DNA from: Merismopedia glauca CCAP 1448/3
GTDB lineage: Bacteria > Cyanobacteriota > Cyanobacteriia > Cyanobacteriales > CCAP-1448
NCBI RefSeq assembly: GCF_003003775.1
Contig: NZ_PVWJ01000046.1
Coordinates: 1-37,606, forward strand
DNA: 37,606 nucleotides
Direction of reading: 5' to 3'
The notes beneath the pieces are model-generated. The model made no database searches, had not been told where the DNA came from, and was given only the letters and a program-made list of their open reading frames with translations. The stretch's first letter is position 1, and the number at the start of each line of letters is the position of its first letter. Shown piece after piece: positions 14,182 to 26,355 of the stretch. Both the position numbers and the translations under genes were made by a program.

Positions 14182-16152
14182 ATGTTGAGCGATTCTTCGA
14201 CTAATGGAATAACTGCTGAACACCGCCAGGAATATGCGCGGCTAGTAGATTACTCTGGAGTATCATGTCTACCAGAGGTTTGGTCAATTGCGGCAGAAAA
14301 ATTCGCCTCTACTCTAGCTTTATATAACCCTCACAGTCAACCAGAAATCAAGGTTACTTATAGTCAGCTTGGAGAGAAAATAAAGTTATTTGGGACAGGC
14401 TTACAGGTTTTAGGAGTTAAAGCCACAGATAGAGTCGCCTTAATTGCCGATAATAGCCCTAATTGGCTAGTTGCAGATCAAGGAATTATGACTGCTGGGG
14501 GTGTAGATGCCGTTCGCAGTTCTCAAGCAGAAACAGAAGAATTGCTTTATATTATCGAAAATAGTGGGAGTAAAGGTTTAGTAGTAGAAGATAGCAAGAC
14601 TCTGAGCAAATTAGCCATATCTAATAGCTTAGATCGCTTACTAATTGAGTTTGTCATCCTGCTGTCAGATGAAACCCCACCGGAAGGAACTAGGTATAAA
14701 GTTTTAAACTTTCAGCAATTACTCGATATTGGTCGCAATTCCACCTTAAAACCAGTAATTCAACAACTAGAGACTTTGGCTACCTTAATGTACACTTCTG
14801 GGACTACCGGAAAACCAAAAGGAGTCATGCTCAGTCATGGTAACTTATTGCATCAAGTCACCGGATTTAGATCTGTAATACAGCCACAGATAGGCGATCG
14901 CGTTCTCAGTATTCTACCAACTTGGCACGTTTACGAGCGCGCTGTCGAATATTATTTGCTTTCTCAAGGCTGTACTCAAATATACACCAGCATTCGCTAT
15001 TTTAAATCTGATATTAAAATACATCAACCTCAATACATGGCTGTTGTTCCTAGACTGTTAGAAGCAGTTTATGAAGGGGTAGAAAAACAGTTTCGCGAAC
15101 AACCCGCTAACAAACAAAAACTAGTCAACTTCCTCTTAGACACTAGTAAGCGCTACATAGAAGCCAAAGAACTTTCCAATGGGGTTTACCTCGAAAACTT
15201 AGATCCATCACCCTTAAAACGCCTCCAAGCCACCTTACAAGCAACTGTATTAACCCCCCTGCATCTTCTAGCCGATAAATTGGTTTACGAGAAAGTCCGC
15301 GCAGCTACCGGAGGAAAAATGAAGCAATTCATCTCTGGAGGTGGTTCCCTAGCTTTACACCTAGATCGGTTTTTCGAGATGGTAGGGATCGAAATCTTAG
15401 TTGGTTACGGATTAACTGAAACTTCCCCAGTTACTAATGTACGTCGTCCGTGGCGCAACTTGAGAGGATCGGCAGGACCTGCCATACCAGGAACAGAAGT
15501 GAAAATAGTCGATCCACAAACCCGTCAACCCCTACCTCAAGGAAGTCGAGGCTTAGTCATGCTTCGCGGCCCCCAAATCATGCAAGGATATTACCAAAAT
15601 CCTGAAGCCACAGCTAAAGCTATAGACAAAGAGGGGTGGTTTGACAGTGGGGATTTGGGTTGGGTGACTCCAGATGGAGATTTAGTTTTGACAGGCAGGG
15701 AAAAAGATACAATTGTCCTGACTAACGGCGAAAATATCGAACCCCAACCCATCGAAGATGCTTGTCTGCGGAGTCCCTATATCTCCCAAATCATGCTCGT
15801 CGGACAAGATCGCCGTTCTGTAGGCGCTTTGATTGTACCTAACCTAGAAGCATTGCAGCAATGGGCACAAACTCGAAATCTTCATTTATCAGTGAGTGAG
15901 GAAACCGCACCTGCTAATACCCAGGTAGTTGACTGCAATAGTAAGATCGTGCAGGACTTATTGCGTCAAGAGTTGAACCGAGAAGTCCAAAATCGTCCTG
16001 GTTATCGCCTAGACGATCGCATTGGACCATTTCGCCTGATTCTATCACCATTCTCCATTGAAAATGGGATGCTGACTCAAACTTTAAAAGTTCGCCGTCC
16101 TGTCGTCACGGAACGCTATCGCGATATCATTGACGGGATGTTTAAAAATTAG
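14182..16152 (+). CDS. aas: Long-chain acyl-ACP / acyl-CoA synthetase (AMP-binding)
   Basis: ANL-superfamily ligase that activates free fatty acids with ATP. In cyanobacteria the single FadD-like enzyme acts as acyl-ACP synthetase and recycles fatty acids released from membranes; that role is inferred from the family. The P-loop-like AMP motif MYTSGTTGKPKGVMLSHG is at about residues 204-221. Other signs are WHVYERAVEYY, the GYGLTETSPVTNVR motif, GWFDSGDLGWVTPDGDLVLTGR with the ribose-binding Asp, and the KDTIVLTNGENIEP hinge. Full length at 656 aa. A YlqD-like gene follows 45 nt downstream on the same strand. Confidence 0.93.
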   Translation: MLSDSSTNGITAEHRQEYARLVDYSGVSCLPEVWSIAAEKFASTLALYNPHSQPEIKVTYSQLGEKIKLFGTGLQVLGVKATDRVALIADNSPNWLVADQGIMTAGGVDAVRSSQAETEELLYIIENSGSKGLVVEDSKTLSKLAISNSLDRLLIEFVILLSDETPPEGTRYKVLNFQQLLDIGRNSTLKPVIQQLETLATLMYTSGTTGKPKGVMLSHGNLLHQVTGFRSVIQPQIGDRVLSILPTWHVYERAVEYYLLSQGCTQIYTSIRYFKSDIKIHQPQYMAVVPRLLEAVYEGVEKQFREQPANKQKLVNFLLDTSKRYIEAKELSNGVYLENLDPSPLKRLQATLQATVLTPLHLLADKLVYEKVRAATGGKMKQFISGGGSLALHLDRFFEMVGIEILVGYGLTETSPVTNVRRPWRNLRGSAGPAIPGTEVKIVDPQTRQPLPQGSRGLVMLRGPQIMQGYYQNPEATAKAIDKEGWFDSGDLGWVTPDGDLVLTGREKDTIVLTNGENIEPQPIEDACLRSPYISQIMLVGQDRRSVGALIVPNLEALQQWAQTRNLHLSVSEETAPANTQVVDCNSKIVQDLLRQELNREVQNRPGYRLDDRIGPFRLILSPFSIENGMLTQTLKVRRPVVTERYRDIIDGMFKN

Positions 16153-16197
16153 CCTTACCTCGCCCTTTTTTCAGATTATCAGACGAGACAAATCATC

Positions 16198-16647
16198 ATG
16201 GATTTATCATCATCTCAGTTATTTCTTAAAAGACCAGTGACAATTAAAGCAGTTGTGACTCCTCGTTGGAAAGAAGAAGCTCAACAGCAACTACAAGGAC
16301 AAATCAATGCTATAGACGGGGAAATGCAACAATTAGATATGCAGGGAAATCGCGCGATCGCCGAAATCAAAAAGCAAAGCATCCAACCCCCAGGACCCCA
16401 AGTTACCCAACAAATCGAAAGTATTCAAGGTCAAGTTAACGAACGCAAAAGTGAAATGTTGGAGCAAAAAAACCAACTTTTACAACAGCTACAACAAGTT
16501 CAAGTTTTAGAAATGAACCAAGAAGTCAATCAAGGTCAGATTGAAGGTATATTCACAGTTGAACGTGGAGAAAACCTGATTCAAAAGATGCAGGTAGAAG
16601 TTCTCCTCAGAGATGGAGTGGTTGAAGAAATTCGCGGCGAATTGTAG
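16198..16647 (+). CDS. YlqD-like coiled-coil protein
   Basis: A 149-aa soluble protein. It opens with LFLKRPVTIKAVVTPRWKEE, has a long glutamine/glutamate-rich helical region (residues about 25-120) with heptad-like Leu/Ile spacing suited to a coiled coil, and closes with a beta-like segment (VLLRDGVVEEIRG). This order matches the YlqD family of Firmicutes and cyanobacteria, whose function is unknown. It directly follows the acyl-ACP synthetase gene and is probably co-transcribed. The hairpin at 16668-16686 likely ends the unit. Confidence 0.82.
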   Translation: MDLSSSQLFLKRPVTIKAVVTPRWKEEAQQQLQGQINAIDGEMQQLDMQGNRAIAEIKKQSIQPPGPQVTQQIESIQGQVNERKSEMLEQKNQLLQQLQQVQVLEMNQEVNQGQIEGIFTVERGENLIQKMQVEVLLRDGVVEEIRGEL

Positions 16648-16667
16648 CTTTTAGTAGCATTGTGGGG

Positions 16668-16686
16668 GGCAGGCATCTTGCCTGCC
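16668..16686 (+). terminator. Terminator-like hairpin after the ylqD-like gene
   Basis: GGCAGGCA pairs with TGCCTGCC across a three-base TCT loop, 20 nt after the stop codon. The following bases are TAAAAATATA, not a clean T run, so it may instead be a dispersed repeat that also works as a terminator. Confidence 0.6.
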
Positions 16687-16793
16687 TAAAAATATAGCAT
16701 AATCCATATATTTCTCTATACACTTTCCTTTTTCTAACCCACGCACTTAAAGGATGAGAATTACTAATTTCCAAAAATGAAAGGCGATTGCGC

Positions 16794-17912
16794 CTAAATT
16801 CTGGAAAAAGTCTGCAATATGTGCCAAATGTGAGCGCTTTTGTCTGCTAAGCGTTCTCTCATCTTCAGATAAAATATCAGTTGCTTGAGTCTGAATTTAA
16901 TATCGAACAGCGATTTTTGAGGTGTAGATAAATCGTCTGCATCTGTAAATAAAGACGCGCAAACTTGTTCTACCAAATCAATAGCGGTTGAGTCAGCCTG
17001 AATTTTGACTAATATCTCTTCTGGTAAAGTTGCATCAAACAGATTTCTGGCTAATAGCAAACCAAACCATAGCATCCGCACCGCACCGATCGCTACAGCC
17101 TGTTGGATAACTTGTTCCCAATCGAGTTGTTTATTAGTTTCAAGTAGTTTAGCAATATCGCAGACTTTGGCTAGATGTTCTATCTGTTGTTCTCTTTCCC
17201 AACAATCTTTAGCTATCTGAATGCAAAGAATTACTAACAAATCTTCAGCCGAAAAGCTAAATACACTTCTTTCAAATAAAGCTACAGGTTGCACGCGCTG
17301 CCAATAAGCTTCAAAATCAATTTCTAAGGGGAAATAAAATGGCGTTAATCCCCAGTGGAGATCTACTTCAATCTTAGTGTCTGGATGGGAAAAACTATGT
17401 TCTCTATCAAACTTTTCCTTGAGAAGATATCCTAGAGATATGAGTAATTCTCTACTTTGATGAAAATCCTGCTGATGAACTAAAAGATCGATGTCGTAGA
17501 CTTGTCGCAGGGATAGTTTGCCATAAACTGAATTAGCCAGGATAGTTCCTTTATAAGGAATAACGCGAATTCCTCTTTCTTGGAACATATCTAATAATCT
17601 ACTCAGTTCGTTAGTTATAACTAAATTTTGTCGGGAGTTTGCATAAAAGCGACCTCGCAAATCTCTAAAAACTGGTGGGGGAACAGCTTGAGGACAAGTC
17701 GTGTTGAGGCGGCAATAAAGTAACTGGATTAACCTATGTTTTTCAGCTATTTGAAGGAGATGATTCCAATCAATATCGCCAGCAACTAAAGCTTGAATCC
17801 GCTTATTTATTGTAGGGTCTAAACCAGTTTGCACGCAACATAAAAATAACTCTCCTTCGGAACTAATATTTGTCGCTAATGGTTTTGGTAAAACTTTTAA
17901 ATTTGTCATCAT
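16794..17912 (-). CDS. Nucleotidyltransferase family protein (NTP_transf_5-like)
   Basis: The core stretch IPYKGTILANSVYGKLSLRQ followed by YDIDLLVHQQDF carries the G-[ST]-like turn and the D-x-D pair of the pol-beta nucleotidyltransferase fold, in the version called NTP_transf_5 (PF14907). The later EVDLHWGLTPFYFP motif is typical of that family, which commonly sits beside RiPP and polysaccharide genes. The exact donor and acceptor are unknown. The C-terminal half is helical (LEHLAKVCDIAKLL, VRMLWFGLLLARNLF). It is the last gene of the minus-strand cluster, 236 nt after the SMP-30-like gene, so it may have its own promoter. It begins MMTN; either Met could be used. Confidence 0.82.
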   Translation of the reverse strand: MMTNLKVLPKPLATNISSEGELFLCCVQTGLDPTINKRIQALVAGDIDWNHLLQIAEKHRLIQLLYCRLNTTCPQAVPPPVFRDLRGRFYANSRQNLVITNELSRLLDMFQERGIRVIPYKGTILANSVYGKLSLRQVYDIDLLVHQQDFHQSRELLISLGYLLKEKFDREHSFSHPDTKIEVDLHWGLTPFYFPLEIDFEAYWQRVQPVALFERSVFSFSAEDLLVILCIQIAKDCWEREQQIEHLAKVCDIAKLLETNKQLDWEQVIQQAVAIGAVRMLWFGLLLARNLFDATLPEEILVKIQADSTAIDLVEQVCASLFTDADDLSTPQKSLFDIKFRLKQLIFYLKMRERLADKSAHIWHILQTFSRI

Positions 17913-18148
17913 CGAGCAACTTCTCTACACTAAAATTTCATAGTAAACTTGTATATTTAAGGATTTAAACTCTATGTGTTTTAGATCATTCGTGAAAAGA
18001 TTCAAAATCTAGTTTTCAATATCAACCTCGGTTCCCACTTTTTCCAAAATTTTAAAGTATTTTTTAGAGCAAAAGTGAAGATTTCAAAAGTATTTATTGC
18101 TCATTTTTTGGCATATATAAATTAAATCTGGTCTGGAAATTCATGGTT

Positions 18149-19084
18149 TTAATAAACTTTAACTCCTGGAAGATTGACTCGAATTTTATAAATAGAAGTA
18201 CCAGCCGTGATATAAAGAGTTTGGCGATCACTATCCCCCCAAGCACAGTTAGCGGGTATTTCTGGGGTGATAATAGTTCCTAAATGACTACCTTGAGGAT
18301 CGAAAACCCATACCCCTCTGGCTCCCGTACAATAGATGTTTCCCTCTACGTCTACCTTCATCCCATCTGGTAAACCTACATCGGGAACGTTCATATCGTA
18401 GAAGAGGCGATCGCCTCTTAGTGTACCATCAGCTAAAATATTAAATACGCGAATATGACGGCGTTCTGAATCATCAATATAAAGCTGTTTTTGATCAGGT
18501 GAAAAGGCTAAACCATTGGGTTTTTTAAAATCATCAGCGACGATACTCAATTGCTTCCCATCAGGTGACAGACGGTAAACTCCTTGAATTGGCTGTTCTT
18601 GCTCATCGGCTGCGATACCATAAGGCGGATCTGTGAAGTAGATACTACCATCGCTTTTTACTATTACGTCATTAGGACTATTCAGTTTTTTTCCTTGGAA
18701 TTTATCTGCTAAAACAGTAATTGAACCATCTTTTTCAGTTCGTGTAACTCGTCGATTACTATGTTCGCAAGCAATTAGCCGACCTTGCCGATCTCTGGTT
18801 AAACCATTAGAATTACCACTAGGTTGTCTAAAGATCGTGATTCCACCATCAGCAGTCATCTGAAAGATTTGGTTAGCTGGAATATCGCTGAAGAGAAGAT
18901 ATTGTGCTTCAGAAAACCAAATTGGTCCTTCAGTAAACTTAAACCCCGTTGCTATACGTTTAAGTTGAGCATTTCTAGGAAATAGATGGTAGAAGTTAGG
19001 AGATTGAGCAGCTAGACAATTAATACTAAATCGATCTTTAATCCATTTTTTAACACGTAACATTTGTCTTTTTACCCTCATCAT
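18149..19084 (-). CDS. SMP-30/gluconolactonase/LRE-like beta-propeller protein
   Basis: Six-bladed propeller family that hydrolyses sugar lactones and related esters using one divalent metal. The usual metal ligands can be placed: Glu in GFKFTEGPIWF, Asn in LNSPNDVIV, Asn in FKKPNGLAFSPD and Asp in LYIDDSERR. The motifs DPPYG and SNGLTRDRQGRLIACEHSNRR are classic for gluconolactonase-like members. Length 311 aa fits. The first 25 residues are basic and not clearly a signal peptide. Starts MMRV. It follows the SDR gene by only 8 nt, so the two are almost certainly co-transcribed. The lactone substrate cannot be deduced. Confidence 0.88.
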   Translation of the reverse strand: MMRVKRQMLRVKKWIKDRFSINCLAAQSPNFYHLFPRNAQLKRIATGFKFTEGPIWFSEAQYLLFSDIPANQIFQMTADGGITIFRQPSGNSNGLTRDRQGRLIACEHSNRRVTRTEKDGSITVLADKFQGKKLNSPNDVIVKSDGSIYFTDPPYGIAADEQEQPIQGVYRLSPDGKQLSIVADDFKKPNGLAFSPDQKQLYIDDSERRHIRVFNILADGTLRGDRLFYDMNVPDVGLPDGMKVDVEGNIYCTGARGVWVFDPQGSHLGTIITPEIPANCAWGDSDRQTLYITAGTSIYKIRVNLPGVKVY

Positions 19085-19092
19085 AATTGTAT

Positions 19093-19971
19093 TTATTCAG
19101 GTGAAATTGGCACAAGACAATAACTGTACGATGATACTCCAGCATCAATTTTAATAACGCTTCCAGTAGTAAATTTGGAAAAATATTCTGATGCCAAATA
19201 AACTGCGGCTCTACCTATATAACAAGGATTAATAGAAGTATGATGTAAAGGAGCATAGTGATGATATTTTGCCTTTCCTTCTTCATCTTCTGCTACCAAA
19301 CCAGGTGCTATTCCATTGACTCTAATGCCAGCAGGTGCCAAATCTACAGCTAGTTCTTGAATAATCATTCCTAATGCAGCTTTAGAAGAACTGTAACTGG
19401 GAAAACCTATAGTTATCCATTGATGTATAGAAGTCACGAAGATAATAGAACCGTGTCTCGAATTTTGCATCATCATCTTGGCAATATTTTTAGTTAAATA
19501 TATAGGACCAAAAATGTTGGTATTAAATGTCTGATACCACTCTTTCAAGTCAAGATTAATTATTTGTTTGGTTTCCAACTGAATGCCAACATTATTAACT
19601 AAAATATCGATATAAATTTCCTGTTCATGTAATATATTTAATAGTCGATTGATATCTTCGATTTTAGAAATATCAGAAACAAATCCTTGAGATTCAACTT
19701 GGTAACTTGCTAATTCCTGTTCCAACTCTGTACAAGATTGTGGATTAAGATCGGTAAAGAAAATATTAGCTCCTTGTTTAGCCATCTCTATTGCTATGCT
19801 TTTACCAATATTTTTGCCAGCACCAGTGATTAAGACATTTTTACCAGACAAAAGTTGATTATCTATCACTAATGATGGTTCCAGATCTGATTTATGAACT
19901 ACAGATTTAGCTGGTTTTACACCATCTTTAAGAATACTTAAAGCTAGTTTAATGCGCTCTTTAAAATTCAT
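19093..19971 (-). CDS. Short-chain dehydrogenase/reductase (SDR)
   Basis: Classical SDR oxidoreductase using NAD(P)H. The cofactor motif is LITGAGKNIGKS, then FTDLNP at the end of beta-2, where the Asp favours NAD(H). NNVGIQ corresponds to NNAG. The catalytic Ser is in FVTSIHQW and the Tyr/Lys pair in YSSSKAALG. The C-terminal part (RVNGIAPGLV and GSVIKIDAG) is canonical. It has an unusual N-terminal extension of about 45 residues (MNFKERIKLALSILKDG...) before the Rossmann fold, possibly a membrane- or partner-contacting helix. It lies 35 nt after a glycosyltransferase gene and 8 nt before the SMP-30-like gene. Substrate unknown, probably a sugar or hydroxyl-bearing intermediate. Confidence 0.9.
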   Translation of the reverse strand: MNFKERIKLALSILKDGVKPAKSVVHKSDLEPSLVIDNQLLSGKNVLITGAGKNIGKSIAIEMAKQGANIFFTDLNPQSCTELEQELASYQVESQGFVSDISKIEDINRLLNILHEQEIYIDILVNNVGIQLETKQIINLDLKEWYQTFNTNIFGPIYLTKNIAKMMMQNSRHGSIIFVTSIHQWITIGFPSYSSSKAALGMIIQELAVDLAPAGIRVNGIAPGLVAEDEEGKAKYHHYAPLHHTSINPCYIGRAAVYLASEYFSKFTTGSVIKIDAGVSSYSYCLVPISPE

Positions 19972-20006
19972 ATTTTAAACTTGAAAATTTCCAATTTTTA
20001 GAGCGA

Positions 20007-20711
20007 TTAATTATCTAGTTTTTGTTTAGCTGCACGTCTTCTATCGAGAGAAGCTTTGATAATGTGTACGTACTGACTAACATTTTGACGTTGTTGAACT
20101 CCTTTATTGGCAGTGTGTAATCGCCTTAGTGTGACTAAATCTGGAAGCATCATTGTCTTGAGATTTAACTCAGTCGCGCGCACATACCAATCGATAAATT
20201 CTCCTATTTCCCAGTTAGTATGAAACTGACCTACACGAGTAAAAGCCTCTCGTTTAATTAGTACGGCTGAGGGGATATTTCCTGGCATTAATTCAGGCGG
20301 ACAATAGATTTTAGCTTTAGTAGTTTCATCTAATTCTGGACTGTGAAACTGTTTGACTTGTCCCATCACAATATCAAAGTCAGGATTACTATTGAAAGCT
20401 GCTATTTGGATTGCTAGTTTATCTTCTAGCCACAAATCATCAGCATCCAGAAAAGCGATGAATTCTCCTAATGCCAATTCTATGCCATAATTTCGTGCAG
20501 CACCGCTACCACTATTAGGTTGAAAATAGTAGCGAACTAATGAGGTAAAACTCTGCGCTACCTCTGCGCTACTATCAGTTGAACCATCATCAACTACAAT
20601 AATTTCGATGGATTTATAGGTTTGTGATAAGACACTTTCAATGGCTGCTTTGAGATAGCGATCGCCGTTGTAAACTGGGATAATTACGCTTACTAAATCA
20701 GTCTTATTCAT
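20007..20711 (-). CDS. Glycosyltransferase family 2, second of a tandem pair
   Basis: Inverting GT-A fold glycosyltransferase: VSVIIPVYNGDRYLKAAIESVL, in which the first strand and helix are visible, then IIVVDDGSTDSS for the nucleotide, and the DxD-type motif FLDADDLW. Length 234 aa is just the catalytic domain with a short basic C terminus and no membrane helix. It overlaps the end of the upstream glycosyltransferase by 8 nt, so translation is probably coupled. The two are clearly paralogues (shared DLW..DKL..QI and a basic tail), made by tandem duplication. Donor and acceptor sugars cannot be told. Confidence 0.9.
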   Translation of the reverse strand: MNKTDLVSVIIPVYNGDRYLKAAIESVLSQTYKSIEIIVVDDGSTDSSAEVAQSFTSLVRYYFQPNSGSGAARNYGIELALGEFIAFLDADDLWLEDKLAIQIAAFNSNPDFDIVMGQVKQFHSPELDETTKAKIYCPPELMPGNIPSAVLIKREAFTRVGQFHTNWEIGEFIDWYVRATELNLKTMMLPDLVTLRRLHTANKGVQQRQNVSQYVHIIKASLDRRRAAKQKLDN

Positions 20712-21405
20712 CTTGTTTTTTCCTAGACAAATTCCGCTTGCGTTCGATTGATTGCTTTAAGAGTTTTAGTAAATTCTGATTATTAACTGATGAGGTTAAA
20801 GAGAGATTAGTATTATGAACTCGTTTATGAAGTAAAACTTGTTCTAGTGCTGCATTTTTAACTTGTCGATCGTTGGCTCTAGCAAACCAATCAACATCTT
20901 CTGCTACACTAAAGTTAGGATTTAATTTACCTATTTGACTGAACAAGGTTTTTCTAGCTACCAAAGTTTCCATGATATAGCCAACGCGATCGCCTGTCAG
21001 TAACTCTTCCCTAAAACCAGGTGGAATTGCATGACCTTCTTCTAAGAAAAACTTGACTCTAGCTACTGTATATTGAACGTCTGGATGCTCTAGTAAGTAA
21101 TTTATTTGGAGAGTTAATTTATCCTGTGTCCACAAATCGTCGTGAGATAAAAAGGCAATAAATTCTCCTTCAGCAGCATCAATTCCCAGATTATAAGCAT
21201 CAGCAATTCCTGCACCTGTTTGCCGTAAATAGCAAATTTGCTGGTAAGATTTAGCAATTGTTTCTGTATCATCTGTAGAATTGCCATCCACCACTATAAT
21301 TTCATAAGGTTGATAGCTTTGGGCTAAAACACTTTCAATTGCATTTCTTAAATAGCGATCGCCATTTCTGACAACAATAATGACACTAACTAAACGATCG
21401 TTCAT
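20704..21405 (-). CDS. Glycosyltransferase family 2, first of a tandem pair
   Basis: GT-A family 2 protein of 233 aa: LVSVIIVVRNGDRYLRNAI at the N terminus, IIVVDGNSTDDTETIAKSY for nucleotide binding, and FLSHDDLW at the DxD position. Its partner downstream has DADD there while this one has SHDD; many active GT2 enzymes accept such variation, so loss of activity should not be assumed. It may differ in donor or metal use. A late VLLHKRVHNTNLS segment has a counterpart in the partner (VTLRRLHTANKG). The gene lies 46 nt downstream of the PqqD-like gene and is probably in the same transcript. Confidence 0.9.
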   Translation of the reverse strand: MNDRLVSVIIVVRNGDRYLRNAIESVLAQSYQPYEIIVVDGNSTDDTETIAKSYQQICYLRQTGAGIADAYNLGIDAAEGEFIAFLSHDDLWTQDKLTLQINYLLEHPDVQYTVARVKFFLEEGHAIPPGFREELLTGDRVGYIMETLVARKTLFSQIGKLNPNFSVAEDVDWFARANDRQVKNAALEQVLLHKRVHNTNLSLTSSVNNQNLLKLLKQSIERKRNLSRKKQDE

Positions 21406-21451
21406 TAGTAAGTTTAGTAGAGTTTTTTGAGGTTAAATTTACGAGAACCAA

Positions 21452-21898
21452 TTATTGCTTAGCATTGGGCCAACCTGTTTCTTCAACTTCGTGGATCGGA
21501 TCTAGCAAAAGTAGATCTTGCATATCTGTAAATTTTTCTAAGGTTGGCGGCTCAAATTTAGCCTTGTCTTTTATTGTATTGCTGGGAGTTTCTTGAGTGC
21601 CATTGTTAGCGATCGCTGCTGTATTTGCTGATTCCAAAACTATTAACTTTTCTAGCTGTAGTTTTTCTATAAATATATCTATAGAAGCTTTGATTTCTTC
21701 ATAGCTGCCATCATAGCGATGGGATATTTCAGTAATTAAATTGTCTTGAGAAATACCTCTGGCAATTCCATCCCAAATATCGGCACCTACTTTCGCTAAA
21801 CTGTAATAATCCCCTCGATCGAGGTTAACTACTACGACTTCACCCTCTATTGTTTCATGCACAACTTTGGGACTATTGATTCTAAAGGTGGGAGACAT
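21452..21898 (-). CDS. PqqD-like RRE protein with precursor-like C-terminal tail
   Basis: Residues about 5-88 form a PqqD-type RiPP recognition element: KVVHETIEGEVVVVNLDRGD, YYSLAKVGADIWDGI, then a helix ending IDIFIEKLQLEKLIVLE. Such domains bind leader peptides and present them to modifying enzymes. Residues 89-112 are a flexible Ala/Asn/Thr linker. Residues 113-148 form a separate tail that starts FEPPTL (F115, P118, L120), matching the Y-x-x-P-x-L leader motif bound by lasso-peptide RREs, and goes on to DMQDLLLLDPIHEVEETGWP. It heads a run of two glycosyltransferases, an SDR and an SMP-30-like gene. The fold call is firm; the idea that the tail is a built-in leader/core or docking peptide is inference. 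Confidence 0.88.
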   Translation of the reverse strand: MSPTFRINSPKVVHETIEGEVVVVNLDRGDYYSLAKVGADIWDGIARGISQDNLITEISHRYDGSYEEIKASIDIFIEKLQLEKLIVLESANTAAIANNGTQETPSNTIKDKAKFEPPTLEKFTDMQDLLLLDPIHEVEETGWPNAKQ

Positions 21899-22166
21899 AC
21901 TTACGATTGCTTTCCTAGATTTTCAGTTCAAAAAGTAATTAAAGTTACATATAATAACTTTCTGTTAAATACAAGTTTAACTACTTTTAACCTGACTCCG
22001 CAATTATCTTTGTGGAAATTTCAGTAGTACCGGAATGGCGAACGAGAGGTACTTCTGGGATCTTCGTGATTAAGCCAAACTAGAGAAGAGCGATCGCCTC
22101 CCTCATCAATTACATCTCAATAAAGGGTAAAATGTCTTCTCCAGCCACCTTGCAATTACCTGCTGC
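21899..22166. other. Divergent intergenic region between PqqD-like and GH116 genes
   Basis: Checked on the minus strand for a separate precursor peptide; the longest short frames are about 20 and 8 codons with no leader-like features, so none is called. It contains a GTA-N8-TAC word at 21935-21948 without a well-placed -10 box, and an inverted repeat AGTACC...GGTACT (22026-22053). Confidence 0.5.
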
Positions 22167-24584
22167 ATGATTTACCCAAGTCCTCGTCCTGAAATTCCTG
22201 CATCTACTTGGAATCGTCCCATCGGTTTAGGTTGGGAAAAACCTTACACGGTGCGCTATGCAAGCAATCTAGACGATGGACCTTGGCATGGAATGCCTTT
22301 GGGTGGTTTTGGCGCGGGGTGTTTGGGACGTTCTTCTCGCGGCGATTTTAACCTGTGGCATATTGACGGTGGAGAACATATTTTTCGCAGCCTTCCAGCT
22401 TGTCAATTTAGCGTGTTTGAACGGGTGGGAGACGAACAGCCTCAAGCTTATGCACTATCTACCCAAGCGCCGGAAGATGGTAGTTTATCCCAATGGCAAT
22501 GGTATCCCGATGAAGGTAGGGGCGCAATGCATTGCGCCCCTACAGGGACTTATCATGCTTTATATCCTCGCAGTTGGTTTGAATACGAGAATGTATTTCA
22601 ATCTCAACTGACTTGCGAACAATATTCGCCGATTTGGGCGCATAATTATCAAGAAAGTAGCTATCCGGTAGGCGTGTTTGAATGGACGGCGCACAATCCA
22701 ACGGATAAGCCGATTACCATCAGTATAATGCTGAGTTGGCAAAATACGGCGGGTTGGTTCAGCAATGCCATTAAAACTCCTCAAGTTAAAGTCAGGGATG
22801 ATGGCAGTCCCGAATACGAGTATCAGCCACGCTGGGGAGATAGTACGGGGAATCTGAATCAGTGGATTGTGGATGGGTTTCGGGTAGGGTGCTTGTGCGA
22901 TCGCTTGCGGTTGGGGGATGATGTAGAAGAAGGTGAAGGACAGTGGGCGATCGCTTCGATTGTCAATCCCAGCGTCGAAGTGTTCTATCATACCCGTTGG
23001 AACCCCCAGGGAAATGGATCTGAGGTTTGGGATACTTTTGCTAGCGATGGTTCTTTAGCGGATTATCAAGACGAAACGCCAGCCGCACCAGGAGAACAAA
23101 TTGCAGGGGCGATCGCGATTCGGTTTACAATTAAACCTGGAAAAACTCGTAAAATACCTTTTATTTTAGCTTGGGATTTTCCCATCACTGAGTTTGCGGC
23201 TGGCACCAAATACTATCGCCGCTATACAGACTTTTTCGGTCGCAATGGTAAGAATGCATGGTCAATTGTCCGCACTGCTTTAAAAAATGTCGATACCTGG
23301 CGCGAAGAAATCCAAAACTGGCAAGCACCGATTCTGAAAGATACCAACTTGCCTGATTGGTTCAAGATGGCATTATTTAACGAATTATACCTGCTAACCG
23401 ATGGTGCTGCTCTCTGGACGGCTGCATCGGAACTAGATCCAGTCGGTCAATTTGCCGTGTCGGAATGCATGGATTATCGCTGGTATGAAAGCTTAGACGT
23501 GCGCTTGTACGGTTCTTTTGGGTTATTGCACCTGTGGCCCAAGTTAGAAAAAGCGATTATGCTAGCTTATGCTCGTGCCATTCCCACTAGCGACGATACG
23601 CCTAGGATTATCGGCTATAACCAAGCCTCAGCCATTCGGAAAGCTGCTGACGCAACTCCCCACGACTTAGGCGCACCTAACGAACACCCCTGGGAAAAGA
23701 CGAACTACACCAGCTATCAAGATTGCAACTTGTGGAAAGATTTGGGTTGCGATTTTGTCTTGCAGGTATATCGAGATTATTTGTTTACTGGGGCAAAGGA
23801 TACCGAATTTCTGCAAGATTGTTGGGATGCAGTTGTTAAAGCCTTGGATTATCTCAAAAAATTCGATCTAGATAACGATGGCATTCCCGAAAACTCTGGC
23901 GCGCCAGATCAAACCTTCGACGATTGGCAACTCAAGGGAGTTAGCGCCTATTGTGGTGGGTTGTGGATTGCAGCCTTAGAAGCAGGAATTGCGATCGCTA
24001 ACATTCTATTATCCCTCCCCGATGCACCTGAATCTATTAATGCAGAAATAGCTAAATATCAAACCTGGCTGGCACAATCTCGCCCTATATACCAAGAAAA
24101 GCTATGGAATGGCAAATATTACCGTTTAGATAGCGAAAGCGGAGTAGAAGTCGTGATGGCAGATCAACTGTGCGGACAATTCTACGCGCGCTTGCTGAAC
24201 TTACCAGATGTCGTCCCCGAAGAATGCGCTAAATCTGCTCTAGAAACCGTATACGATGCTTGTTTCTTGAAGTTTCACGATGGTAAATACGGCGCGGCTA
24301 ACGGCTTGCTTCCCGACGGTTCGCCACTCAACCCCAAAGCCACTCACCCCTTAGAAGTATGGACGGGAATTAACTTTGGGATTGCTGCATTTTTAATCCA
24401 GATGGGGATGAAATCTGAAGCGATGCAAATGACGGAAGCTGTAGTGAATCAAATATATGAAAATGGCTTGCAATTCCGCACTCCTGAAGCGATTACTGCG
24501 GCTGGAACCTTCCGCGCCAGTCATTACTTGAGAGCAATGGCGATTTGGGCAGTTTATTTATTATTTAATGGGGTTAAATATTAG
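22167..24584 (+). CDS. GH116 family beta-glucosidase (GBA2/glucosylceramidase-like)
   Basis: Retaining glycoside hydrolase of family 116, related to animal GBA2. The N-terminal beta domain (residues about 15-330) starts MPLGGFGAGCLGRSSRGDFNLW, a family hallmark. The C-terminal alpha/alpha-barrel carries the catalytic residues: by alignment with GBA2, E433 (VSECMDYRWYESLDVRLYGS) is the likely nucleophile and D581 (PDQTFDDW) the likely acid/base. Length 805 aa is normal for a bacterial member and no signal peptide is seen, so it is probably cytosolic, acting on glucosides or glucolipids. Odd feature: codons 117-126 (GRGAMHCAPT) are encoded by a 28-nt palindromic repeat at 22516-22543 that also occurs twice outside genes; the reading frame is preserved. 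Confidence 0.92.
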   Translation: MIYPSPRPEIPASTWNRPIGLGWEKPYTVRYASNLDDGPWHGMPLGGFGAGCLGRSSRGDFNLWHIDGGEHIFRSLPACQFSVFERVGDEQPQAYALSTQAPEDGSLSQWQWYPDEGRGAMHCAPTGTYHALYPRSWFEYENVFQSQLTCEQYSPIWAHNYQESSYPVGVFEWTAHNPTDKPITISIMLSWQNTAGWFSNAIKTPQVKVRDDGSPEYEYQPRWGDSTGNLNQWIVDGFRVGCLCDRLRLGDDVEEGEGQWAIASIVNPSVEVFYHTRWNPQGNGSEVWDTFASDGSLADYQDETPAAPGEQIAGAIAIRFTIKPGKTRKIPFILAWDFPITEFAAGTKYYRRYTDFFGRNGKNAWSIVRTALKNVDTWREEIQNWQAPILKDTNLPDWFKMALFNELYLLTDGAALWTAASELDPVGQFAVSECMDYRWYESLDVRLYGSFGLLHLWPKLEKAIMLAYARAIPTSDDTPRIIGYNQASAIRKAADATPHDLGAPNEHPWEKTNYTSYQDCNLWKDLGCDFVLQVYRDYLFTGAKDTEFLQDCWDAVVKALDYLKKFDLDNDGIPENSGAPDQTFDDWQLKGVSAYCGGLWIAALEAGIAIANILLSLPDAPESINAEIAKYQTWLAQSRPIYQEKLWNGKYYRLDSESGVEVVMADQLCGQFYARLLNLPDVVPEECAKSALETVYDACFLKFHDGKYGAANGLLPDGSPLNPKATHPLEVWTGINFGIAAFLIQMGMKSEAMQMTEAVVNQIYENGLQFRTPEAITAAGTFRASHYLRAMAIWAVYLLFNGVKY
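22516..22543. repeat. 28-nt perfect palindrome, copy 3, inside the GH116 gene (centre TGCA)
   Basis: Same GTAGGGGCGCAA arms as the two intergenic copies, with centre TGCA. It lies within the GH116 coding sequence between the codons for YPDE and TYHALYPRSW, adding about ten residues without a frameshift or stop. Confidence 0.93.
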
Positions 24585-24625
24585 ACTTGGAACAGAATAA
24601 TTTACCAATTCTTTAGCCTGCTACC

Positions 24626-25714
24626 CTAATTACTGAACCATTCTTTACGTATCTCACTTTCCAACCTAAATAGTTTTTCATCAGATAAAATTGAGTTGTT
24701 TGTTCCAATTTGCTGCGCGTATTTAACCTCTCGTTCTGTCTTTTGACTAGCGATGAAAAACTCTTGACTGGTAGCAGCGCTTGCTTCATTAACGGCTTCC
24801 ATATCAAGCTTTCCGATCTGAGAATCTATCGATCCTATTAGGAGGTGCTGACTTGATATTGGTAATAAGACATTATCAAAATTAAAATTATTTTCCGCAG
24901 TTAGTAGAGCTTCATAACGATTTTCCGACGTAATATGGAGGGAACCTGCATCTCCCAAAATATAACTACCTATAGGAGCAATATTTACAGACCATCTCAA
25001 ACTACGCAACTTCTCGACCCTCTCTTGAGGCGCAATTGAGTCCGACAAAGACTTTATGTGTGCCTCTTTTATCATATCTGGTAACTCACTTTGTACAAAC
25101 TCAAGAGAATTTAACATAATCGGATGCAACTCTGAAATAGAATTTCTGAGAAATTGCGATATGATATGCGGATGGTCACTGATGTATTGACGGATAGCTT
25201 TTTGCTGAGATAGCGTAAATTTATCTTTAATTTCTTTCTCGAAGAAATCAGGGTTTTCATCTAAATATTTAATTATGAAATTCTCAAAGTCACTCGACTC
25301 TCGCAAATTGTTTTGAACCATGTCTATACATAACTGGCTCGCGTCTTTGATTGAATTACGTAAGTTCTTGGTTCTCACAAAAAGATGAACCACTAGTTCT
25401 GGAATTACAGGCTCATGCACCAGTGCATCTGAGGTATGTGTTCGTAGTCGATTAACGAGTTTAGCATATTGATGCTCAGCCTTTGTTATAGAAGTGTCAA
25501 GTGCAGAGTTTTCTAAGCCATAAAAAAATCTTTCAGCACCCTTATTCCTCACATTAGTAAGATAAGGCTTTCTACCACTCTCGAAAACCCATATTTGATC
25601 CTCTTTTTTTCTTTTAGATTTCACATTGTTGGCAAATGCTTTACCATTAAGCTCTGATATGCTAAACCCTCTTTGTAAAAACTGAGGTATAAAGTGCTGA
25701 TTTTTTCCTGACAT
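24626..25714 (-). CDS. DUF4238 domain protein
   Basis: The opening MSGKNQHFIPQFLQRGFS is the signature N terminus of DUF4238, a family of bacterial accessory proteins without an established biochemical role. The 362-aa sequence continues with a mixed helical region and no transmembrane segment. Later parts are LVVHLFVRTKNLRNSI (about 110-125) and a C-terminal beta/alpha section (VNIAPIGSYILGDAG, then NVLLPISSQHLLIG). It converges on the GH116 gene (41-nt gap) and is followed upstream by the hicBA pair, so it belongs to a small accessory patch between conserved genes. A role in defence or toxin biology would be a guess. Confidence 0.85.
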   Translation of the reverse strand: MSGKNQHFIPQFLQRGFSISELNGKAFANNVKSKRKKEDQIWVFESGRKPYLTNVRNKGAERFFYGLENSALDTSITKAEHQYAKLVNRLRTHTSDALVHEPVIPELVVHLFVRTKNLRNSIKDASQLCIDMVQNNLRESSDFENFIIKYLDENPDFFEKEIKDKFTLSQQKAIRQYISDHPHIISQFLRNSISELHPIMLNSLEFVQSELPDMIKEAHIKSLSDSIAPQERVEKLRSLRWSVNIAPIGSYILGDAGSLHITSENRYEALLTAENNFNFDNVLLPISSQHLLIGSIDSQIGKLDMEAVNEASAATSQEFFIASQKTEREVKYAQQIGTNNSILSDEKLFRLESEIRKEWFSN

Positions 25715-25851
25715 TGAATTTTCAAATAAAAGTTCTGAAAGTGTATAATTTTGAGCATAACTAGAATATCTATTAATCTAATTTAAGAACTACTGCTAAG
25801 GTAGCGATCACAATCTGACTATTAATTAAAATTAATCGCTATGTACTTCAC

Positions 25852-25870
25852 TACAGCCGGAACGGCTGTA
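25852..25870. repeat. Hairpin TACAGCCG-GAA-CGGCTGTA
   Basis: Perfect eight-base stem with a three-base loop between hicA and the DUF4238 gene. No T run follows on either strand, so it is more likely a dispersed repeat or a boundary element than a classic terminator. Confidence 0.55.
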
Positions 25871-25930
25871 TCAGACCTTGTTGCCTTCATAAGCTACGTA
25901 TAATATCTAATCAAACAATTAAGTCTACTT

Positions 25931-26152
25931 TTACAATAATGACAAAAATTCCTCCACACTCAACTCAATACTCCGAATAATTGATCGCAGAGTCCCTTTT
26001 GCTAACTCCGAATGATCTGGCACTACAACTTGAGCAAATGGATCGTCTCTTCGCATGATTACATGACTGCTCTCTCGGCGTTTTTCGTAGAATCCAATCT
26101 TTTGGAGTGCCTTGATGCAATCTTTACCTGAAATACTAGGCAACTTACTCAT
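25931..26152 (-). CDS. hicA: HicA toxin (mRNA interferase)
   Basis: Small double-stranded-RNA-binding-fold toxin that cleaves mRNA. The 73-aa sequence has the family pattern: LPSISGKDCIKALQKIGF, then RRESSHVIMRRDD with the catalytic histidine H30, then QVVVPDHSELAKGTLRSIIRSI. The usual Gly before Ser-His is Ser here, which many homologues tolerate. It overlaps hicB by 4 nt (ATGA), antitoxin first, so translation is coupled. Probably active, since all key positions are intact. Confidence 0.94.
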   Translation of the reverse strand: MSKLPSISGKDCIKALQKIGFYEKRRESSHVIMRRDDPFAQVVVPDHSELAKGTLRSIIRSIELSVEEFLSLL

Positions 26153-26355
26153 ACTAAGACTAGGAATGCCTCAAACTTATCTTCGGGAACAGGCAAACCA
26201 TCTTCTTCCAAAGCAACGACATAACCAGAAATGGCTTCTTTGATGTTTACCAAAGCTTCCTCTTTGGTTTTTCCTTGACTGACGCACCCTTTTAAACTGG
26301 GACACTCGACAATCCAATATCCATCTTCATCTTTGTACAATATTACTTGCCTCAT
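26149..26355 (-). CDS. hicB: HicB antitoxin (short form)
   Basis: Partly degraded RNase H-like fold antitoxin: MRQVILYKDEDGYWIVECPSL, then KGCVSQGKTKEEALVNIKEAI, ending VPEDKFEAFLVLV. At 68 aa it is the short form without a C-terminal DNA-binding domain, so autoregulation must depend on another mechanism or on the complex. It lies upstream of hicA, overlapping by 4 nt, the reverse of the E. coli hicAB order but common in cyanobacteria. The promoter must lie in the 116 nt before rluD, which is divergent. Confidence 0.94.
   Translation of the reverse strand: MRQVILYKDEDGYWIVECPSLKGCVSQGKTKEEALVNIKEAISGYVVALEEDGLPVPEDKFEAFLVLV

Follow-up and report, generated by a model that had tools for sequence, protein, structure and literature searches.

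The RRE-tail gene of Merismopedia glauca CCAP 1448/3 raises the question of what a leader-like tail does at the C terminus of a peptide-binding RRE protein when no separate precursor gene lies nearby. The gene (21452..21898, minus strand; ORF list and Pfam) encodes a protein of 148 aa and is located in a window, i.e., the whole stretch of DNA analysed (37,606 nucleotides), which also contains a HicA/HicB-type toxin-antitoxin pair (25931-26355) and a phycobilisome linker gene, the latter marking the genome as cyanobacterial. The reading favoured here is that of a self-presenting RRE, in which the C terminus of the protein supplies both a leader-like segment and a fixed core-like peptide, and the tail is modified; we consider it about equally likely to be right or wrong.

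Residues 1-88 (21635..21898, minus strand) were taken for a peptide-binding RRE domain by the first-pass annotation, and this assignment is confirmed. The Pfam PqqD model (PF05402) matches residues 20-86 with 43.7 bits (cut-off 23.4), and the AlphaFold model and its PDB matches indicate a lasso-B1-like domain; the best NCBIfam match, lasso_PqqD_Bac, reaches 52.3 bits and thus stays below its cut-off of 80. The best PDB matches of the model are RREs solved together with leaders: TbiB1 (5v1v, Z 15.1, rmsd 2.4, 88 residues aligned; 5v1u, Z 14.8, rmsd 1.2, 84 aligned) and TfuB1 (6jx3, Z 12.7, rmsd 1.6, 85 aligned). The NisB structure with the NisA leader (4wd9) was aligned over model residues 1-127, a range that gives the first and last residues and is a hint only. 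The pocket residues of PbaB1, Y39, L41, I44, I48, Y69, F83, L87 and L92 (PMC13381572), map by alignment onto Y32, L34, V37, I41, Y62, F76, L80 and L85 of the window protein, and when the PbaB1 alignment was mapped onto 81 sequences, the groove residues Y31, Y32, L34, I41, Y62, F76, L80 and L85 were found to be conserved.

The RRE domain is followed by a variable linker (residues 89-112; 21563..21634, minus strand) and the tail (residues 113-148, which with the stop codon run from 21562 down to 21452). The coordinates first given for this stretch of 36 residues were correct, and its start needed a trivial change (AKFEPPTL, not FEPPTL). The profile of 81 sequences (the window protein and the best 80 of 304 relatives) shows that the tail is kept better than the RRE, the mean relative entropy being 2.12 for residues 5-88, 0.58 for 89-112 and 3.12 for 113-144; both tail motifs are therefore more conserved than the linker, a comparison that the annotation had proposed for homologues with the same tail. 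The leader-like motif F115-E-P-P118-T-L120 (21539..21556, minus strand) has F in 76/81 sequences at its first position (Y in 3, W in 2), P in 80/81 and L in 76/81, which agrees with the F-x-x-P-x-L pattern proposed earlier, and the basic residue three positions before F115, K112, is K or R in 60/81. The core-like segment D133-PIHEVEETGW-P144 (21467..21502, minus strand) is near-invariant: D125, L129, D133, P134, H136, G142, W143 and P144 are identical in all 81 sequences. The annotation's suggestion of a fixed DPIHEV-x3-GWP tail in other PqqD-like proteins is thus supported, six of its residues being shared by the window protein and all 80 aligned relatives.

Because tail patterns were used to find the loci, the 81-sequence profile alone overstates the conservation of the tail. 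A search with the RRE only (residues 1-90 as query, 292 genomes) is free of this overstatement, and all eight RREs at least 46% identical to the query, the window protein included, lie in tailed frames; a variable or absent tail was sought there and not found at this level of identity. Eleven other discrete RREs, which together with one kinase frame made up the sample read among the untailed matches of this query, end at most 13 residues past the match and have no DPIH. When the tail was used as a query against 386 genomes of the phylum, 48 had a match at E <= 1, and the matches at E <= 0.007 fall in frames of at least 150 aa. The RRE precedes the tail in all 28 tailed proteins among the phylum loci read. 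Eight strong same-order matches have tails that are 62-82% identical, as against 46-53% for the RREs of seven of them (the eighth, G338, was outside the 292-genome draw). Synonymous changes make up 72% of the codon differences in the tail (16 codons, 81 sequences) versus 40% in the RRE (32 codons, 80 sequences), in loci found by tail patterns and with one of the 81 sequences lacking a match to the RRE pattern. Judged by these sequence comparisons, the contrast between tail and RRE is more than chance. Weak tail matches outside RRE frames (an IspF-like frame, a 44-aa frame in G155 and a 65-aa frame in G332) were rejected as chance. The tail gave nothing at E <= 10 against PDB sequences, and no description of it was found in a literature search limited to open-licence papers.

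A scan of one genome per species yielded the 304 relatives, and nearly all of the best 80 align from about residue 5 up to 145 or further. Tailed relatives carry about a dozen phylum names, including Cyanobacteria, Nitrospirota, Chloroflexi, Acidobacteria, Bacteroidetes, Verrucomicrobia and Latescibacterota (labels as deposited, mostly of metagenome bins). A second tailed family, f32, occurs in genomes of 1.6-2.1 Mb, possibly of Vampirovibrionia, and shows RRE identities of 18-26% (12 tailed RREs) versus tail identities of 46-64% (20 tails); the Pro of the docking motif is kept in only 2 of these 20 tails. The f32 tails (L012, L014-L032) extend past GW, mostly with a TPEKDSIGYTKEET..RE-like extension, which was not noticed in any of the 81 sequences of the main alignment. 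Five Chloroflexi loci (L115, L119, L123, L129 and L141) share one protein cluster, whose members measure ~910-920 aa at all but one locus; at L115 the member is adenylation-carrier-acyltransferase-like, and ABC-transporter-like genes lie nearby. Another chemistry may be joined to the tailed RRE at these loci.

Where the tail would lie is suggested by two AlphaFold models. The first was built from 77 rows (the window protein and 76 of the best 80 relatives, L076, L082, L085 and L105 being left out). Its RRE block has mean pLDDT values of 89-96, linker residues 92-108 fall below 50, and residues 111-120 return to a mean of 89. Strands are predicted at 113-114 and 121-123 and a short helix at 126-130; after residue 130 the means drop to 50 and 48, so that the core-like segment (mean pLDDT ~50) is predicted to be disordered. 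In the PbaB1-PbaA complex, RRE residues Y38-N40 are paired with the leader positions that come six to eight residues past the Trp of the WxxPxL motif (PMC13381572). Six to eight residues past F115 are E121-F123, i.e., exactly the predicted strand (21530..21538, minus strand), whose register equals that of leader residues -9 to -7 in PbaB1-PbaA. LppB Asp70 bonds the Tyr hydroxyl of its leader (PMC13381572); its match would be residue 72, if LppB F74 is equated with PbaB1 F83 from the text of that paper, and this position holds A, G or S in 65/81 sequences, as fits a Phe in the motif. The second model represents an f32 protein and used 19 rows, none of them common to the first (of the 20 f32 sequences, L028 was left out); its RRE matches TbiB1 best again (Z 11.3), and it has a tail strand at 109-112, a helix at 115-121 and a core (122-142) below 50. 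Two models from separate families thus place the tail strand and leave the core disordered, and in neither is the tail part of another folded domain. The self-docking first proposed for the tail accords with these models, and the tail very probably docks in its own RRE groove, the contact being deduced from model confidence and strand register. As modelled, the layout is that of a leader and a core in cis.

Docking in trans, with the tail serving as leader for another RRE, such as a second RRE of the f32 kinase or that of a domain-swapped dimer neighbour, is improbable to a high degree. At locus L156 an f32 kinase continues in frame into an RRE (residues 386-458), and RRE matches occur in five frames of 503-535 aa, the L156 frame included (292 genomes). 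With the second RRE on the f32 kinase (one locus checked) and the Pro mostly lost in f32, trans docking is possible in that family. However, no second RRE was noticed by eye in the ~360-aa kinases of other families, domain scans of L063 show none, and the single-chain model puts the tail in cis.

The claim that no separate precursor is encoded nearby also stands. None was found in the 268-nt gap upstream (21899-22166) or in the 236-nt gap (17913-18148), both defined by ORF coordinates. Within 15000-26000, two ORFs of 25-130 aa contain [YFW]xxPx[LIVFA] (15620-15712 and 16581-16676); neither is precursor-like and neither lies in the gaps. A stand-alone tail gene was not found in 30 whole genomes, in which all 34 tail matches lie in frames of 145-302 aa, and the loci of the scan gave no convincing second tail-like stretch, with four chance-like matches at E < 1.

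Separate precursors do exist in the genome of the window. Two of its RREs are untailed and sit in lasso-type clusters, with precursors such as MKQAYNTPELLVHGSVEKITLNGVLENADV... on contig C66 and ...YHSPNFIEHGNAEEILESIE... on contig C35, and a lasso precursor leader, AYNTPELLVHGSVEKITLNG, aligns gap-free with KFEPPTLEKFTDMQDLLLLD of the tail. The first cluster (L215, G000:C66, 4201-14505) contains, besides the untailed RRE, a B2-like peptidase (PF13471) and five YxxPx[LN] precursors that closely resemble one another; an Asn-synthetase-like protein and ORFs of kinase size (301 aa) and transporter size (622 aa) were recognised there by eye. The second (L216, G000:C35, 2553-8945) was read by eye as two YHSPNF precursors, two NTP_transf_5-like proteins, an HPrK-like kinase and the untailed RRE. 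These real YxxPxL precursors, together with an RRE type and a motif that are the same as in true leader complexes, would suit a tail that acts as a built-in plug, a pseudo-leader that fills the groove and gives way to a true precursor whose gene lies elsewhere or was overlooked. We regard this as unlikely, since no precursor is found near the gene, no convincing second tail-like stretch occurs in the loci, and a plug has no need for the far segment DPIHEVxxxGWP as its best-conserved part.

The self-presenting reading draws further on the company that the gene keeps, above all on a kinase that is absent from the window and is nevertheless the key partner. In other loci the gene at position +1 is most often a ~360-aa HPrK-like kinase (47 of the 69 loci first counted). 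Over 55 profile positions it resembles HPr kinase structures (1jb1, E 5.5e-6), and among 67 sequences with an aligned length above 250 it retains His (67/67), Lys (67/67), Asp (67/67) and a second Asp (64/67), which is the motif of lasso kinases (PMC9266682). The kinase is present within the flanks in 72/80 loci, on the same contig in 76/80 and in the same genome in 78/80. A kinase profile search of the 11 genomes outside the first count gave a match in nine (E <= 4.3e-74), with the kinase at the RRE-tail locus in L094, L134 and L136, 11-20 kb off on the same contig in L115, L119, L123 and L129, and on another contig in L114 and L130; the search found none for L099 and L108, both of whose contigs end one gene past the RRE-tail gene. 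Among 292 genomes, a kinase at E <= 1e-20 occurs in eight, the same eight that have a tailed RRE outside f32 (kinship ignored), and five genomes without a strong tail match have none at E <= 1e-6. In G270 the RRE, tail and kinase lie in one frame. The f32 kinase is divergent and was present in six of the seven loci read, the seventh having no kinase in view.

The window locus is one of those, like 8/80 loci, with no kinase within its flanks; the kinase of this genome is on contig C98, in two copies, one of them fused to a GT2. The locus on that contig (L149, G000:C98, 6046-15796) is of the glycan type and has no RRE-tail gene; besides the HPrK-like kinase it encodes an 842-aa GT2-DUF1919-kinase fusion, NTP_transf_5 and a pair of ABC-2 exporter proteins. 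The window gene itself is followed downstream, all on the minus strand, by two GT2 glycosyltransferases (20704..21405 and 20007..20711; Pfam), a short-chain dehydrogenase (19093..19971; cluster members in 19/81 loci), an SMP-30/gluconolactonase-like protein (18149..19084; 15/81) and an NTP_transf_5 nucleotidyltransferase homologue (PF14907; 16794..17912; 215.6 bits; 63/81). The "GT" neighbour cluster (74/81 loci) mixes kinases with GT2s through kinase-GT2 fusions, and the kinases were therefore counted separately. ABC exporter cluster members occur in 38/81 loci, with none in the window cluster. Overall, the surroundings are polysaccharide-like (GT2s, a GlcNAc 2-epimerase-like protein and ABC-2 exporter parts). 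In 24 chosen genomes, the B2 peptidase domain PF13471 was found in seven, in no case within 10 kb of the RRE-tail gene (nearest ~10 kb, in G388), and the SpI-like peptidase model TIGR02228 was over cut-off in three and at E <= 0.001 in 14, none near that gene. No Asn-synthetase-like cyclase was noticed among the neighbouring proteins inspected.

As the family occurs together with a kinase and sugar-transferring enzymes, the protein probably presents its tail to these enzymes. The leader part, from K112 to about F123, would dock as an additional strand in the groove of the same protein, the position that the leader of a free precursor takes in lasso B1 proteins, leaving DPIHEVxxxGWP flexible and exposed. 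Gene company and the chemistry of PsmK/PsmN and LPP suggest that the HPrK-like kinase, the NTP_transf_5 protein and the GT2s would then use the tail as acceptor, which would give a phosphate- and/or sugar-bearing peptide on a protein carrier. In the genome of the window the kinase would act from the other locus on contig C98. No linked leader peptidase was found in the 24 genomes, so the product may stay tethered. It is possible, though unlikely, that this is a widespread RiPP-like system whose RRE, leader and fixed core form one protein serving as a peptide primer: the kinase would charge a core residue other than Ser/Thr (Asp133 and His136 are candidates), the NTP_transf_5 protein would add the first sugar and the GT2s would extend it, the glycan staying on the carrier or being exported together with it.

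Position 124 is Ser/Thr in 77/81 sequences. Its use as a universal acceptor was dropped, as it is N in 13, D in 4 and S in 3 of the 20 f32 tails and D in the divergent copy L217. The core segment has no conserved Ser/Thr; D133 stands 18 residues past the motif aromatic, which is the distance of the Ser phosphorylated by LppK (LppA Ser3). These positions count against the core as acceptor, as do the mostly lost Pro of the f32 docking motif and the loci that have no kinase within their flanks; the chances that the tail core is the acceptor of the modification seem evenly balanced. The earlier annotation had considered a self-docking leader, or the modified peptide itself, the simplest reading; its self-docking part is supported by the models, and against the simplest reading count the better conservation of the core than of the leader motif, the failure to find a linked peptidase in 24 genomes and the lack of a universal Ser/Thr. 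A segment that is fixed, disordered and devoid of any conserved Ser/Thr acceptor, the polysaccharide-like surroundings and the internal position of the tail in a kinase fusion would also suit a pure recruitment motif, which is a serious rival, if a somewhat doubtful one: the RRE would hold the leader, and DPIHEVxxxGWP would gather the kinase, the NTP_transf_5 protein and the GT2s on another substrate, e.g., a lipid-linked or soluble sugar, the tail remaining unmodified. This leaves unexplained why the motif follows a lasso-type leader in the normal register, and the HPrK-like kinases of lasso and LPP systems phosphorylate peptides (PMC9266682, PMC13381572).

According to a published analysis, 21% of PF05402 matches are above the size of a discrete RRE and have no other Pfam annotation (PMC12710340), and the RRE-tail family belongs to this oversized, otherwise unannotated type. 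A system whose precursor is fused to its recognition domain can escape searches for modified peptides, since these depend on a short precursor encoded on its own. The constancy of tail, kinase and sugar-transferring set across about a dozen phylum names would allow one protein to be used for testing the part that HPrK-like kinases and NTP transferases play in polysaccharide loci.

Several known systems share parts of this arrangement. Mycofactocin and PQQ precursors have a fixed core and are served by a PqqD-type RRE and radical SAM enzymes; the fixed core is common to the RRE-tail family, whereas those precursors are separate genes. In borosins the substrate peptide is present in cis as a tail fused to the N-methyltransferase, while the substrate-like tail described here is fused to a non-catalytic RRE. 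The phosphorylated lasso systems of the paeninodin/pseudomycoidin type resemble the family in the B1-type RRE, the His-Lys-Asp-Asp kinase and the nucleotidyltransferase homologue (PMC9266682, PMC5067487); their PadeK/ThcoK-type kinases phosphorylate the C-terminal Ser of the peptide, and hexoses are attached to the phospho-Ser only if the nucleotidyltransferase homologue PsmN is present (PMC9266682). Unlike in these systems, no linked B2 peptidase (24 genomes), no separate precursor and, among the neighbours looked at, no cyclase was found here. The LPP of Bacillota, encoded by lppAKBSDN (Popov et al., 2026; PMC13381572), is described as having glycosyltransferase-rich loci with an RRE, an HprK-like kinase, an NTP transferase and an MsbA-like exporter (PMC13381572). 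Common to both are the lasso-type RRE, the leader recognition ([Y/W]xxP in LPP), the HprK-like kinase and the NTP transferase, and ABC exporters accompany part of the RRE-tail loci, although not the window cluster. LPP precursors are separate genes with variable C termini, a phosphorylated Ser3 and an SpI-like peptidase, whereas no linked SpI-like peptidase was found for the RRE-tail family (24 genomes), in which the RRE carries leader and core in the same chain, with a fixed core and an Asp at the position equivalent to Ser3. As the family has the same gene set as the LPP systems and the precursor in cis, the protein would thus dock its own leader and offer DPIHEVxxxGWP to these enzymes.
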